64,000 nucleotides of DNA, taken from positions 1 to 64,000 of the forward strand of contig JACQFD010000002.1 of assembly GCA_016200225.1 (NCBI GenBank), given 5' to 3'. The position numbers and the translations under genes were made by a program. This DNA is from Planctomycetota bacterium (lineage in GTDB: Bacteria > Planctomycetota > UBA1135 > JACQFD01). Below are positions 37,219-47,506 of the stretch, piece after piece (the stretch's first letter is position 1; each line of letters begins with the position of its first letter). Below the pieces are notes generated by a model. That model was given only the letters and a program-made list of their open reading frames with translations. It made no database searches and had not been told where the DNA came from.

Positions 37219-40200
37219 TCATCGCGCGGGTTCGGCTGCGATCGTTTTTTCCACTTCCTCGACAAACGCGGCCTTTATTAAACTCTGGGATACCGGCGAA
37301 GATTTGTATAATTCCCGGAACTTCGCGAATTCGGCGCGCGCTTCGTCGGTTCGTGCGAGCGCATGCAGCGTCAATGCGAGAAATGGCAATCCCATGGCGC
37401 GACGGCGCGACGGCGCCGCGGGATCGTTTAGATTCGCGCGCTTCAAGGATTCGAGCGCATCTGTATACTTTCCAAGCCGGAACAGCGCCGCTCCGAGAAT
37501 ACCATTATAATAATCCACGCCCGGCCTCAATTCGCCGGACTTCGCCGCGCGGCGCCGCGCGAGTTCGAGTTGCTCGCGCGTCGCGTCGCGCGAAAGAATC
37601 GTTTCCCAGGCCTGCCTCGCGAGTTCGCTCGGAAAATCAACATTCGTCGAAAGTAACAAAAGAGCGGCATCGCGGACCTCGGGCGAGATCCCCGAGTCGT
37701 TTTGAATCCGTTCGCGCGCCTCCTCCGTCGTCGCGCACTGTTTTATTGATATATCTAATAGTTGACGCGCGCTCGTCAGCGTTTCGGGAGCGCCGACTTC
37801 ATAATGAATTCGTTCGTCGATCGTGAGCGCGCGCGGCGCGCGCCGGAGAGCGGCGGCCATCGGATCGATTGGCCAGACGTCGACGTCGCCGGATTGCGTA
37901 ATCGTAGAAATCGTCGACGAGGCCCGGTTGTAGTATGCCATTTTAATGATCGTATCGGGCAATTCATAACGAACCAGCTCCTCGCCCGTGCGCGCGTCCC
38001 AAAGGCGCGCCGTGCCCTCCGTCGAACAAGTAATAATTCGTTGATCGTCGTCGCTGAACACGGCGTCCACCGCCCAGTCGCGGTGGCCGATCAGCGTCGC
38101 GATGGTTTCGCCAGTATTACAATCGAAGACGCGCGCCGTGCGATCCCAATTCGCTGAAACTACTTTCGTGCCGTCGTGGCTGAAGCGTACGGTACTCACA
38201 TGGTCGGTGTGTCCTTCGAGAGAATGAACAATTTCACCTGTCGCGCTATCCCAAATATAGATGACACCGTTGCGCGCGGCGGTGACCACCTGTTTTCCAT
38301 CGGGCGAAAATTCACAATAATCGACGACGCTCGTGTGTCCCACGAGCCGCATGATTTCAAGATGTGTGTTTCGATCCCAGATGCGCGAGATACCGTCGGC
38401 GCCGGAACTAACAATTCGCCCGCCGTCGGGGCTGAAACCGATTTGATTGATTGGGGCCGCGTGTCCTTCCATGACCGCTTCCGGCTGTTCCGAGTCTGTC
38501 CGGTAGAGTCGGAGTTTCTTATCCATGCCGCCGGTTGCGATCCATGCGTCGTCGCGACTCAGTGCGGCTGTATGAATCCACTGCGAACTTCCGATGTAGG
38601 TTTTGATGAGGTGGCCGCTCGCGGTGTCCCACAGTCGCGCAGTGTTGTCGCGCGACGCGCTCGTAAATCGAGTGCCATCTTCGTTCCACTGCATCTTCTC
38701 GATTTTCTGAGTGTGCCCGAGCCACGGTTCCAACTCGCGAGTACTCGCGGCGCGCCAGAGTTTGACGTCCGTGGTGAGTGTTGCGACTCTCGGTTCGCCT
38801 GCGCTTAGTGCGACACGAAATATCGAATCATCCTGCCCGCGAATGATGGCAATGACGCGGCCGGTATTCGGTTCCCAAAGCCGCGCGGATTGATCGTCGC
38901 TACAAGTAGCAATCTGACGGCCGTCGGGGCTGAAGACGGCGTCCCGAATGATCCGAGTGTGGCCGCGCAATTGATACTTTTCAGCGCCCGTCCGCGCATC
39001 CCAAATGCGTACTGTGTGGTCGTAGGATCCGGTGGCGACGAGTGTGCCATCCGTGTTGAAGCGTCCGGACGTCACGACATCCGCATGTCCGAGGAGAGTC
39101 ACGCGCTCTTCGGGATTCTTAACATTCCAAATATTTGAATTATTGTCGTCGCCGCCGGCGACGACGCGAGTACCGTCGGGACTGAAACGCGCGTACCGGA
39201 TGGATTTGGTATAACCCTTCAGGACGGCCCGCACGGTTCCCGCGGTCGCATCCCAGAGGCGCACGAGACTCTCTGTCGAATGGCTGAGTACGGTTTCGCC
39301 GTCGGCCGAAAGACTCGCATCATAAGTAAGATTCGGCCCGGGCGACATGCTCTTTAATAATGCGCCCGACTTCGCATCCCATAATTCGAGCGGCCCCCTT
39401 TGGCTGAATGTTAATATTCGCGACGCGGACGCGTCGAAGCACGCGCCGTTCAAGCCCTCCGGTTGCGCACGGATTGTAAGTATGTTCGCGGCAGTTGTAA
39501 CGTTCCAAATGCGCGCCGTTCCGTCGGCGGAAGCCGTCAGTACTGTTGTCCCGTCCTGCGAAAACACCGCGCTCACAACCGGTCCCTCATGTCCGACAAG
39601 TGTTGCGATCGGGTGGCCGTCCTCGGAATTCCAAATTCTGGCGGTCTCGTCGTTGGATGCCGTTAAGAATAACTTTCCGTCCGGACCGAATTGTATGGAA
39701 TTCACGCGGCCGGCGTGCTCGGAGAGTGTGCGCACTTCGCGACACGCGTGCAGAGCTTGAACGAGCGCGTTATTGGATAGAATTCCCGGCGAACGCTGCG
39801 CGGCTTCGATCGCGAGGCCGATCGCGAGGCCCGGATCTGTAGAGATCGCGCTGAGCGCCGTCGCCGTCAAACGCAGTCCATCCGCGTGGCGGCGCAATTC
39901 CTTTTCGCGTTTGAGTGTTGTGAGAGCGATCTCCGTTCGAGTACTCTCTTCATACGCGATGACGCTTGGAAGACCTACTACAAGCAGACTGCCGAGAATG
40001 ATTCCGACAGCGCTCGCGGGGTTGCGCCGCGTCCACTTTTGAAATCGAATGAAAGCACTGGGACGCTTGGCTTCAATCGGGCGGTGTTGTAGTACATTTT
40101 CGATGTCGCGGCCAAAGTCGGCGGCGGTGACATACCGTCGGCCGCGTTCGCATTCCATCGCTTTTGCACATACCGTTTCCGCTTCCCAAGACACTGTTTC

Positions 40201-41268
40201 ATTAATATCTCGGATGCGCGGCATGTGGCCCACTTCGATCAATCGCATCGTCTGCTCGGGCGTTTCGCCCACATAGGGCATCCGATGAGTTAACAGTTCA
40301 AAAAGAGTCACGCCAAGTCCATAGACATCCGTGCGTGCATCCAGTTCCGCAGTCTTGCCGCGGACTTGTTCGGACGCGAAGTAGGGCAGTGAACCCAACC
40401 GTGCGCCACTGTGTGTTATGCGCTCGTCGCCCCCTGTACTTGCAAGACCGAAATCGACCAACATCACGCGGCCGGCGGGTGTGATCATTAAGTTTCCCGG
40501 TTTCACATCGCGGTGAATCACGCCGCGACGATGTGCATGTTCGAGCGCATCCGCGACCTGCTGGACTATTCTTAAACAAACCTCCGTCCAACTACCTTCG
40601 AACATGTACCCGGTGGAAACATCCGCCGCGTGGCCTGCGCGCTTCGCAATAGCGCCCGCAAGATCGCGTCCGGTGAGATCTGTTACATTTCTCCCCTCGA
40701 GATCGCGCAGCGCTTCGCCAAGACTACATCCAATGACTCGCTCCATCGCAAAGTAGGGTACACCCCCGTCTTCGCCGACGGCGTAGATAGGTACTATTCC
40801 TGGATGTTGAAGGCGCGCAACGGCCTCTACTTCCCTCTTGAAACGCTCGCGTGCTCCGGTGAATCCAAGATGCCACGGCCGAACGAATTTCAACGCGACC
40901 ATCCGCTTCAGCGAGACTTGCTCCGCCAGGTAGACAACGCCCATGCCCCCTTCGCCAAGTTTTTCAAGAATCGCAAAGTCGCCGAGTTGCTTTGGAATCT
41001 CGACCGGTGCCACCGGGTTTTGTTCATTTAGAAAACCGAGCCGGCGCAAGTGTTCAATTCGCCGGCGAATCGCCGACTCCTGCTCGGGATGCTCAAGGCA
41101 GAATGCTTGTATTCCGCGCGGTCCTTCGACCTCCATTCGAGCAAGGCACTGGACGACGAGTTCGCCGAGATCGCTCGCGTCTCTCAGTTTCTTTTCGCGG
41201 AGATCAATGTCGCCTCGGCGGATCTGCGGATCCGATGCATGCGGTGCATCATCGTTCGGGGGAACCAT
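37219..41268 (-). CDS. Giant Ser/Thr protein kinase with membrane helix, 14 WD40 repeats and TPR-like tail
   Basis: 1349 residues from the ATG at 41268 (MVPPNDDAPHASD); an upstream ATG at 41448 would overlap the divergent gene. Kinase domain at about 95-395: GEGGMGVVYLA, VALKFV (catalytic Lys), HRDVKPGNL, DFGLAS, SLPYFASEQ. One transmembrane helix near 425-445 (AVGIILGSLLVVGLPSVIAY). Then about 14 WD40 units, for example GHEGPVVSAVFSQDG ... ARIWN and GHTDHVSTVRFSHDG, probably two seven-bladed propellers outside the membrane or as a scaffold. The C-terminal 160 residues look like TPR-type helices. Such kinases are typical of Planctomycetota. Confidence 0.93.
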   Translation of the reverse strand: MVPPNDDAPHASDPQIRRGDIDLREKKLRDASDLGELVVQCLARMEVEGPRGIQAFCLEHPEQESAIRRRIEHLRRLGFLNEQNPVAPVEIPKQLGDFAILEKLGEGGMGVVYLAEQVSLKRMVALKFVRPWHLGFTGARERFKREVEAVARLQHPGIVPIYAVGEDGGVPYFAMERVIGCSLGEALRDLEGRNVTDLTGRDLAGAIAKRAGHAADVSTGYMFEGSWTEVCLRIVQQVADALEHAHRRGVIHRDVKPGNLMITPAGRVMLVDFGLASTGGDERITHSGARLGSLPYFASEQVRGKTAELDARTDVYGLGVTLFELLTHRMPYVGETPEQTMRLIEVGHMPRIRDINETVSWEAETVCAKAMECERGRRYVTAADFGRDIENVLQHRPIEAKRPSAFIRFQKWTRRNPASAVGIILGSLLVVGLPSVIAYEESTRTEIALTTLKREKELRRHADGLRLTATALSAISTDPGLAIGLAIEAAQRSPGILSNNALVQALHACREVRTLSEHAGRVNSIQFGPDGKLFLTASNDETARIWNSEDGHPIATLVGHEGPVVSAVFSQDGTTVLTASADGTARIWNVTTAANILTIRAQPEGLNGACFDASASRILTFSQRGPLELWDAKSGALLKSMSPGPNLTYDASLSADGETVLSHSTESLVRLWDATAGTVRAVLKGYTKSIRYARFSPDGTRVVAGGDDNNSNIWNVKNPEERVTLLGHADVVTSGRFNTDGTLVATGSYDHTVRIWDARTGAEKYQLRGHTRIIRDAVFSPDGRQIATCSDDQSARLWEPNTGRVIAIIRGQDDSIFRVALSAGEPRVATLTTDVKLWRAASTRELEPWLGHTQKIEKMQWNEDGTRFTSASRDNTARLWDTASGHLIKTYIGSSQWIHTAALSRDDAWIATGGMDKKLRLYRTDSEQPEAVMEGHAAPINQIGFSPDGGRIVSSGADGISRIWDRNTHLEIMRLVGHTSVVDYCEFSPDGKQVVTAARNGVIYIWDSATGEIVHSLEGHTDHVSTVRFSHDGTKVVSANWDRTARVFDCNTGETIATLIGHRDWAVDAVFSDDDQRIITCSTEGTARLWDARTGEELVRYELPDTIIKMAYYNRASSTISTITQSGDVDVWPIDPMAAALRRAPRALTIDERIHYEVGAPETLTSARQLLDISIKQCATTEEARERIQNDSGISPEVRDAALLLLSTNVDFPSELARQAWETILSRDATREQLELARRRAAKSGELRPGVDYYNGILGAALFRLGKYTDALESLKRANLNDPAAPSRRRAMGLPFLALTLHALARTDEARAEFAKFRELYKSSPVSQSLIKAAFVEEVEKTIAAEPAR

Positions 41269-41379
41269 TCGCGAGTTCGCAGGATACGCCACACGGAATC
41301 CATTGTGGTAGTATTGCCACGCGTGATCTCCCGCCGCCGTCGATTGCGACGCGGTTTTCAATCTTGGAATCCAACAAAT

Positions 41380-42633
41380 ATGAGACGCATCGAACGCACT
41401 TTCATGTCCTTCGCGCTGTTCGTTTTCGCGGGCTGCGCCGCGACCCACGCGACGCCCGTCCCAACCACGACGCCGGTCGAATCGCCGGCGACGCGGCTCG
41501 CGGCCGTCACGGCCGAATTCGCCAAGGCCGAGTCCGATTATTGGGATGCTTTTGATAAATTAAAATTAAAGGACGACGAAACCACGAAATATTTAAAAGA
41601 CCATCCGGCGCCGACGCCCGATAATTGTCTAAAATCCGTCTGGGACATTGTTAATAATAACGAAAAACAATCCGTGGCCATGACGGGGCTCGTGTGGATC
41701 CTAAATCATGGATACGCCAATCCCGAGAATCGTAAGAAGTCGCTCGCCTTGCTCCGGCGCGATTTCATCGCGAGCGGTGACATTTCCCCGGTTTGTCAAC
41801 TGTTGTCGCGCGACGCGACTCCGGCCGCGCGCGAGTTTTTGGAAGCCGCGCTCGATAAGAATCCCGACCGCCAGGTCAAGGGTTCGGCTTGTTATGCGCT
41901 CGCGAAAAATCACGCCTCGATCGCGCAAATGATCAATAACTTAAAGGGCGCCGACGCCGCGGCGCGCGACCGATATTTAAAATCCATGGGCGAATCCGAG
42001 TTCGACCGTATTACGAAACTCGACCCCGCGGAATTGACGAAGAATGCCGAGAAACTGTACGATCGCATCCTCGATTCGTTCGCGGATGTTAAGTATGGAA
42101 AACAAACGCTCGGGGACGTCGTTCGCGCCGAAATGTTCGAGGCCCGTTCATTAGTGATCGGCAAACCGGCGCCCGAAATCGAGGCGGAGGATCTCGACGG
42201 AGTTCGATTTAAACTAAGCGACTACCGCGGAAAAATTGTAGTCTTGGACTTTTGGGGAAATTGGTGAGGCCCCTGCCGGGCCATGTACCCGCACGAGCGG
42301 TCGCTCGTCAAGCGAATGGAAGGTAAACCGTTTGCGCTTCTCGGCATCAATAGCGATAAGGATCGCACGGAATTAAAGAAAGCCATGGCTAAAGAAAACA
42401 TCACGTGGCGTTCGTTTTGGAACGGCGGATCCACGAGCGGGCCGATCTCCACTGCGTGGAACGTCCACGGCTGGCCCACGATTTATGTACTCGACGGCAC
42501 CGGCGTGATTCGCTACAAAAACGTCCGGGGCGAAGCGATGGACAAGGCGGTCAACACGCTCCTCGCCGAAATGGGAATCGAGCCTCCGGTAAATGCTAAC
42601 GAATCGACCGAGGGAAAGGCGGCGCGCAAATAA
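41380..42633 (+). CDS. TlpA-like thioredoxin-fold lipoprotein, probable selenoprotein (UxxC)
   Basis: 417 residues when the TGA at 42265-42267 is read as selenocysteine (U296). It starts at the ATG at 41380 (MRRIERTFMSFALFVFAGC, lipobox Cys); an ATG at 41404 is the alternative. Residues of about 25-255 are helical. From about 262 there is a redoxin/TlpA domain: GKPAPEIEAEDLDG, LSDYRGKIVVLDFWGNW, then U-GPC-RAMYPHE, and later GWPTIYVLDGTGVIRY with the cis-Pro. Family members have CxxC exactly where UGPC stands. The frame continues uninterrupted for 122 codons after the TGA, and a SECIS-like hairpin follows. It probably acts as a periplasmic or outer-leaflet thiol/disulfide reductase or peroxidase. 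Alternative: a one-base nonsense mutation. Confidence 0.82.
42268..42308 (+). promoter_or_regulatory. Candidate bacterial SECIS element
   Basis: Immediately after the UGA is a small hairpin GGCCC-CTGCC-GGGCC (42268-42282). Then at 42293-42308 a perfect 6-bp stem ACGAGC/GCTCGT is capped by the tetraloop GGTC. The loop is about 31 nt after the UGA, within the 16-37 nt window of bacterial SECIS elements. The apical GGUC equals the loop core of the E. coli fdhF element. SelB binding is inferred. Confidence 0.75.
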
Positions 42634-45194: not shown

Positions 45195-45389
45195 TGGGTT
45201 CTCTTGGATCGGCGTTGAATTGATTTAAGGTCGTGCCTTTTAGGCTAAATTCGATGTTGTGAAACATATCCTCAGCGACTTTTAAGGCAAGCGAATTACT
45301 TTTCTGGGAGTTCGACGCCGCCAGCGACCCCGTTGGCGCGCGTCCTCGTCATCGGAATCGCGCCGATCCTTCCCGCTATACTCGGCAAC

Positions 45390-46954
45390 ATGGCGGATGC
45401 ATCCGAACAACAACGTCAAGATGACGATTCAGAATTGTTAGGAAGGCTCGCGGCCGGTTTGCCGCGGCACACACGCTACAAATTACAAGGCGAAGTCGCG
45501 CGCGGAGGCATGGGCGCGATTATTAAGGTTTGGGACGAGGAGATTCGCCGTACGCTGGCGATGAAAGTAATATTAGGAAAAGGCAACGACAACGAAAGCA
45601 GCGCGGAATTTAAGAATTGGGTTTTGCGCGAGATAGGTCTGGTCACTGTCGTTGTCGTTACAATCGTGTTGAGCATCGCGGGATTCTTTATTGTTGCAGT
45701 TTTGAACAGACAATTGCGGACAGCCAACATGAATTACGAGCGGATGGCCGATGTGCACCTCCTTGCGGAACTCAACGCAATTGGCAGGGGAATCTTAAGA
45801 ATTATCAATCTTCGCGCGCGGAACTTGAGAAGTGGATTTCCGATTCAGAACAACTCGCAGGACACCTCGGCGGCCATCAGACTCGGCTGTCTGAACTCGA
45901 TACAATGATAACGGAGGGCGAATCCGACACGAAAACGTTGTGGCAACGGGAAGTCCTGAAAGACTTGGTTTCCGGCTTGACCGAATTATCGAATTCTGAA
46001 GATCCTTCAAGTGTCGCGTCGCGGATTCATAAGAAATTTCAGCTGTGGAATATAACAAGCACACCCAGCCAGGAGTGGATCTCTGCAATAGAATCAATTG
46101 CGAGCGTTAAAGATTTCCCGGCCTACGTGGGCCCACAGATCAAACCCCAATTCGGCCTTGTGCCGATTGGTAAAGATCCAAAGTCGGGGTTCTTCGAATT
46201 TGTAAATCTCGACACTGGCATTGCGCCGAAACGCGATTCCGATGGAAAGATTGTAATCAAGGATGACATGGGTTTGGTCATGGTCTTGGTTCCCGGAGGC
46301 AAATTCTGGATGGGTGCACAGAAGAAAAACCCTGCATCGCCAAACTATGATCCGAAGGCCTTTGAAATCGAATCGCCGGTGCATGAAGTCACACTCGCGC
46401 CATTCTTTATTTCCAAATATGAAATGTTTGAATTCCAGTGGAGTAGGCTGGCAACCGCCAATTCGCGCAATCATGATGAACAAGACCGGGTCGCGAATCT
46501 GCCCATCGATAATATTAGTTGGGACGACTGTTCAGAATGTCTCCCGGCGGCGGGACTCCAACTCCCGACCGAATCGCAATGGGAGTATGCGGCGCGAGGC
46601 GGGACATCAACGCCTTGGTGGACTGGAAGCGACGAAAAGTTGATAGAGAAAGGGGGCAACGTCTTGCGGCCAAACGCACATAGGATCGGATCATTCTTAG
46701 GAAACCCCTTCGGTCTTCATGACACAATTGGAAACGTATTTGAATGGTGTCAGGACGGAGAAACTACATATGAGACTGTCGTGCGCGCCGGCGACGGATT
46801 GCGTGCGACTGCGCGATCCGACCACCGCGTGATCCGTGGCTGTTCGTTCTTGAGTGGCGTCGGAAACGCGCGATCGGCGCTACGCAGCTTCGACCGGCCC
46901 ACACACCGCATCAACCAACTCGGCGTCCGCCCCGCGCGCGCGATTACACAATAA
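45390..46954 (+). pseudogene. Decayed Ser/Thr kinase–FGE-sulfatase fusion
   Basis: From the ATG at 45390 the frame reads the start of a kinase (YKLQGEVARGGMGAIIKVWDE, then LAMKVILGKG), then jumps directly to a membrane helix (VTVVVVTIVLSIAGFFIVAVL). The whole middle of the kinase (HRD, DFG) is missing. Near 45780-45800 the frame shifts; the continuing frame encodes a coiled coil (SSRAELEKWISDSEQL) and a formylglycine-generating-enzyme domain (MVLVPGGKFWMG, LPTESQWEYAARGG, GNVFEWCQDG). So at least one internal deletion and one frameshift. Intact versions are common in Planctomycetota. A sequencing error could explain the frameshift but not the deletion. Confidence 0.8.
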
Positions 46955-47370: not shown

Positions 47371-47506
47371 GCGCCACCGCGTGATCCGTGGCGGTTCGTA
47401 CTTGAGTGGCGTCGGAAACGCGCGGGCGGCGCTACGCAGCTTCGACCGGCCCACACACCGCATTTACCTTCTCGGCGTCCGCCCCGCGCGCGCGATTACA
47501 CAATAA
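47371..47506 (+). pseudogene. Duplicated FGE-sulfatase C-terminal fragment
   Basis: About 130 bp nearly identical to 46828-46954, encoding HRVIRGGSYLSGVGNARAAL and the ending GVRPARAITQ. It keeps the canonical RGGSY where the upstream pseudogene has RGCSF. No upstream FGE sequence is present, so this is a fragment left by duplication or by deletion of a second gene. Confidence 0.8.

Follow-up and report, generated by a model that had tools for sequence, protein, structure and literature searches.

An in-frame UGA codon, probably read as selenocysteine, in a multi-copy subfamily of ResA/TlpA-like proteins from Planctomycetota

Introduction

The gene at positions 41380–42633 of the window most probably encodes a selenoprotein, in which the UGA codon at position 296 would be decoded as selenocysteine (Sec) by the SelB-dependent route, giving a UGPC active site in an exported ResA/TlpA-like reductase; we place the probability of this reading at about 0.93. 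The window is the whole stretch of DNA analyzed, namely bases 1–64000 of contig 29 from a Planctomycetota genome of 5.31 Mb that is 93.5% complete. A first-pass annotation of the window had proposed that selenocysteine is inserted here to yield a UxxC redox protein, and this proposal is now supported by the Sec machinery of the host genome, by homologues carrying the same TGA, and by the fixation of synonymous codons in a hairpin downstream of it. By sequence comparison, decoding of UGA-296 as Sec through the usual bacterial pathway is thereby strongly supported.

The Gene and Its In-Frame UGA Codon

The gene lies on the plus strand, as do all of its features given below. From the ATG at 41380, its frame meets only one stop codon before the TAA at 42631–42633, namely the TGA at 42265–42267, which stands where a thioredoxin-type CxxC motif would have its first Cys, in the context DFWGNW-U-GPCRAMYPHERSLV. 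The frame and the position of the TGA had thus been read correctly in the first-pass annotation, and the 122 codons that it counted after the TGA are in fact 121 sense codons. The gene appears complete, with 417 residues, Pfam matches above their cut-offs and full-length homologues that also carry TGA. The codon of Cys299, the presumed resolving residue of the UxxC motif (TGC, 42274–42276), is invariant in alignment A1, in which TGA was read as C, and is itself TGA in a UxxU subgroup. Further downstream, the GWPTIYVLD segment with its cis-Pro (42469–42495; P366 and T367 invariant in the same alignment) indicates that the thioredoxin fold continues past the UGA.

Judged by comparison of the homologous loci, the TGA at the active-site codon is not there by chance, since the same codon is TGA in about 140 homologous copies, and 116 of 141 have an identical GGTC loop after it. 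Over all of the loci collected, the active site is encoded by TGA in 141 and by TGC or TGT in 55.

Selenocysteine Machinery of the Host

SelA (505.1 bits), SelB (309.7 bits over its cut-off), SelD and tRNA-Sec are all encoded in the host genome. The SelD gene (335.6 bits; C9:90537–91454) adjoins that of SelA and itself has a TGA in frame where SelD is known to carry Sec, in the GUxxK site. ARAGORN assigns the anticodon UCA to the tRNA-Sec, and Rfam concurs with a score of 73.2 bits. In addition, TGA serves as an ordinary stop in this genome, where it ends 12 of the 37 long ORFs of the window, which excludes a general reassignment of the codon.

The Hairpin Downstream of the UGA

A perfect 6-bp stem closed by a GGUC loop, which the first-pass annotation had placed about 31 nt past the UGA, was found at 42293–42308, with ACGAGC at 42293–42298, the GGTC loop at 42299–42302 and GCTCGT at 42303–42308. 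The published model of bacterial SECIS elements calls for a loop of 3–9 nt with a G in its first two positions, a stem of 4–16 bp, a spacing of 16–37 nt and an MFE at or below −7.5 (PMC13188914). The hairpin agrees with every one of these rules, having a 4-nt loop that starts with GG, a 6-bp stem, a distance of 31 nt from UGA to loop, and an MFE of −7.9 to −8.5 kcal/mol.

The clearest evidence that this element acts as RNA comes from codon choice. Among 112 nonredundant Sec copies encoding R-S-L at positions +11 to +13, a set conditioned on the amino acids only, Arg is CGG in 111, Ser is TCG in 112 and Leu is CTC in 112, whereas in pooled usage these codons account for about 15%, 20% and 50%, respectively. 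This fixation against usage implies that the nucleotides of the hairpin are selected independently of the protein. Moreover, the mean folding z-score relative to synonymous recoding is −1.62 for 113 hairpin-bearing Sec copies and −0.09 for 55 Cys copies; the corresponding test of the MFE is significant at 0.05 in only 41% of single sequences, and for this reason codon fixation was taken as the evidence at the RNA level. The same choice is imposed by covariation, none of which is demonstrable in the main hairpin because its stem is nearly invariant.

A covariance model built on the main hairpin and run against the host genome recovered four close paralogues and no other selenoproteins. The next match (C9:150565, 25.8 bits) was rejected, as it lies in a phospholipase C-like frame devoid of an in-frame TGA.

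About 23 TGA copies lack this hairpin and mostly read HEKxLV. These class B copies include L003 of the host genome along with L086, L092, L095, L097, L104, L109, L113, L125, L135 and others, and most of them have an alternative 7-bp stem with a 5-nt loop that starts 38 nt past the UGA, just beyond the published 16–37 nt range. A stem of at least 6 bp in this register occurs in 18 of 23 class B copies, in none of 48 Cys copies and in 2% of the copies with the first hairpin (class A), and its arms display compensatory variation (AGACGCU/AGCGUCU, AGGCGCU/AGCGCCU and AGGAGCU/AGCUCCU). Given that the register was picked after inspection and that the null probabilities for single sequences are modest, we regard the 7-bp hairpin as a likely, and not a firmly established, SECIS element in a second register. 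Three class B copies have GGUC again within the loop of this second stem.

Homologues, Paralogues and Cys Variants

Homologues were found at E ≤ 1e-20 in 111 of the 121 genomes of the host's order, the host included; single genomes have as many as six matches, nearly every match listed has a TGA inside it, and selA is present in 115 of the same 121 genomes. In a set of 294 Planctomycetota genomes, homologues at E ≤ 1e-25 were present in 79, and among the matches listed above 140 bits just four do not carry TGA. In named records, the homologues belong to Planctomycetota and Verrucomicrobiota. One Sec gene (L139, CAMAWP010000038.1) sits in a record titled Akkermansia muciniphila, whose species label may be wrong. 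A scan of viral contigs returned Cys thioredoxins only.

Copies with TGA at the same codon span about 70 genera, sister species among them, and their downstream domains are intact; at this codon other homologues have Cys, and these lack the hairpin. The pattern that the first-pass annotation had named as contrary to its reading, that is, no Sec machinery, or Cys in all sister species together with downstream decay in this gene, is therefore excluded.

Four more TGA paralogues occur in the host genome, located on C15, C14 and C37 and, for a distant TlpA-like gene, on the contig of the window itself (L009, C29:131584–132006), which reads UGPC with an in-frame TGA. The C37 paralogue (L004, C37:58838–59698) reads ULTU, its two TGA codons being 9 nt apart. 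Such UxxU sites (ULTU or ULGU) are shared with L138, L161 and L165 from three other genomes; all have the same GGUC hairpin and form one well-supported clade, and a diselenide active site is possible in these proteins. Two or three paralogues stand in tandem in G092 C4 (L113), G051 C90 (L095) and G157 C206, and in the L113 array two Sec copies are adjacent to one Cys copy.

A full-length Cys homologue is borne on a plasmid of Planctomyces sp. SH-PL62. The Cys copy L196 retains the HERSL peptide, encoded as CAC GAG CGT TCC CTG, which does not form the hairpin, and in this region L167, L168, L193 and the SH-PL62 protein have diverged further than L196. In a maximum likelihood tree built from 155 sequences, the subfamily forms a clade (99/97) composed mostly of Sec copies, with Cys copies nested inside it, most clearly L167 and L168 among Sec copies of Pirellulaceae (100/99). 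The topology suggests changes from Sec to Cys accompanied by loss of the SECIS element, a direction that we regard as inferred, since the bootstrap had not converged and some branches are long. By a narrow measure we favor a history in which Sec was ancestral and the paralogues multiplied as selenoproteins, several lineages then going back to Cys; HERSLV would have been kept mainly for the mRNA signal, and in a second branch a new SECIS register, with its loop 38 nt from the UGA, would have arisen together with the change from HERSLV to HEKxLV.

Protein Architecture and Probable Function

Both the sequence and the structural model point to an exported, two-domain thiol oxidoreductase. The N-terminus (41380–41454) reads as a signal for export and may include a lipobox (FVFAG-C19), so that the lipoprotein proposed by the first-pass annotation is plausible; lipobox-like sequences are also present in L033 and L041, but the feature is not conserved, and in L030, the nearest relative, the signal peptide shows no obvious lipobox Cys. 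An all-helical domain follows (about residues 36–257; 41485–42150), modeled by AlphaFold with pLDDT mostly above 85, for which Pfam gives no match. The C-terminal domain (42151–42570) is of the ResA/TlpA thioredoxin-fold type, with AhpC-TSA, Redoxin and Thioredoxin_8 above their Pfam cut-offs. Overall, the AlphaFold model (pLDDT 87) has a complete thioredoxin fold across the UGA, and its top Foldseek matches are thioredoxin-family thiol-disulfide oxidoreductases, ResA included (TMt 0.82–0.89). A TlpA/ResA-like assignment is thus backed by the AhpC-TSA/Redoxin domain, the UxxC motif, the cis-Pro and the ResA-type fold, while the NCBIfam models for ResA, DsbE, TlpA and the WAxxUGC motif protein all score below their curated cut-offs.

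In the mechanism that we propose, SelB carrying Sec-tRNA-Sec would bind the GGUC hairpin 31 nt past UGA-296, and the inserted selenocysteine would complete a UGPC active site in the thioredoxin domain behind the helical N-terminal domain. Going by fold and motif, the protein would be exported and would most likely be a thiol-disulfide reductase: the selenolate would attack a disulfide, and resolution would then fall to Cys299.

Alternative Explanations

The TGA might be a real stop, due to misassembly or to a nonsense mutation of recent date, with the downstream frame left as a remnant. The assembly is of the MAG type and TGA is a normal stop in this genome, but a recent accident accords neither with the same TGA in some 70 genera, with intact domains and invariant residues after it, nor with codon fixation in the hairpin, and we hold this explanation to be extremely improbable. 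Hardly better placed is a tRNA, reassigned or acting as a suppressor, that would decode UGA as Trp or Cys and not as Sec: a Cys here would suit the chemistry, yet TGA terminates other genes in the window, tRNA-Sec and SelA, SelB and SelD are present, and the hairpin tracks TGA rather than Cys.

A selenoprotein with another role, such as a peroxidase-like enzyme, a DsbA-like oxidase or a protein of selenium handling, is unlikely but deserves more weight than either of these. Pfam AhpC-TSA is common to peroxiredoxins, the N-terminal domain is uncharacterized, and the number of paralogues suggests several substrates; against this, UGPC and the cis-Pro match the ResA/TlpA/CcmG reductases, and Sec occupies the position of the attacking Cys in CxxC and not the TxxC site of peroxiredoxins. 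We therefore retain the reading of a Sec-containing ResA/TlpA-type reductase.

Relation to Known Selenoproteins

Extracytoplasmic reductases such as ResA, TlpA and CcmG (DsbE) share with this protein the fold, the CxxC site, the cis-Pro and export, and differ from it in having Cys in place of Sec and no extra N-terminal domain; its scores against the NCBIfam ResA and DsbE models are 65 against a cut-off of 170 and 46 against 123. NCBIfam NF041054, the ResA-like WAxxUGC motif protein, also has Sec within a ResA-like domain, but as UGC and not UxxC (score 32.7, cut-off 300). In E. coli fdhF, the SECIS hairpin lies in the coding region downstream of the UGA and has a GGUC apical loop; this loop is common to both elements, whereas the stem differs and the loop here is 31 nt from the UGA.

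PF00578/cd02966 selenoproteins with UxxC or UxxU are listed in reviews (PMC13188914, PMC9312934), and proteins of this type were detected in marine metagenomes (PMC1088965, PMC2398784). The present proteins agree with those listed as Prx-like thiol:disulfide oxidoreductase or Thiol-disulfide isomerase-like in superfamily, in having both UxxC and UxxU, and in Sec from an in-frame UGA; set apart on the basis of descriptions only, they add the helical N-terminal domain, the SECIS-bearing PHERSLV segment and many copies in Planctomycetota. Selenoproteins and Sec genes have been reported for three planctomycetes (PMC4807772). Planctomycetota are not mentioned in the prokaryotic selenoproteome reviews and surveys searched, and no description of the subfamily was found in the literature searched, which was mainly open-access. 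The first-pass claim of a new selenoprotein thus holds for the subfamily, which has neither an NCBIfam model nor a description that we found, but not for its kind, as UxxC proteins of the TlpA/Prx-like type are already listed (PMC13188914). We file it as a large, multi-copy, previously unmodelled subfamily of a known selenoprotein kind in Planctomycetota and some Verrucomicrobiota.

Other Features of the Window

Divergent to the selenoprotein gene, the minus strand (37219–41448) encodes a protein of 1409 aa that combines a Ser/Thr kinase domain with many WD40 repeats; its true start is probably further inside, because the listed GTG start overlaps the start of the selenoprotein gene. A 133-nt direct repeat, 94% identical (46822–46954 and 47374–47506), is apparently a partial duplicate in which the final part of a gene with an FGE-sulfatase domain (45617–46954) was copied downstream. 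The short frame at 45333–45908 resembles the beginning of a Ser/Thr kinase (ARGGMGAIIKVWDEE), followed by a transmembrane segment; Pfam gives no match for it, and it is perhaps a decayed kinase/FGE gene.

Significance

Nearly the whole of the host's order retains the Sec system and, along with it, several copies of a single Sec redox protein, and gene callers that terminate at UGA would truncate such genes at the active site. Moreover, the subfamily offers a natural experiment on the mutual constraint between protein sequence and SECIS element and on the exchange of Sec with Cys.
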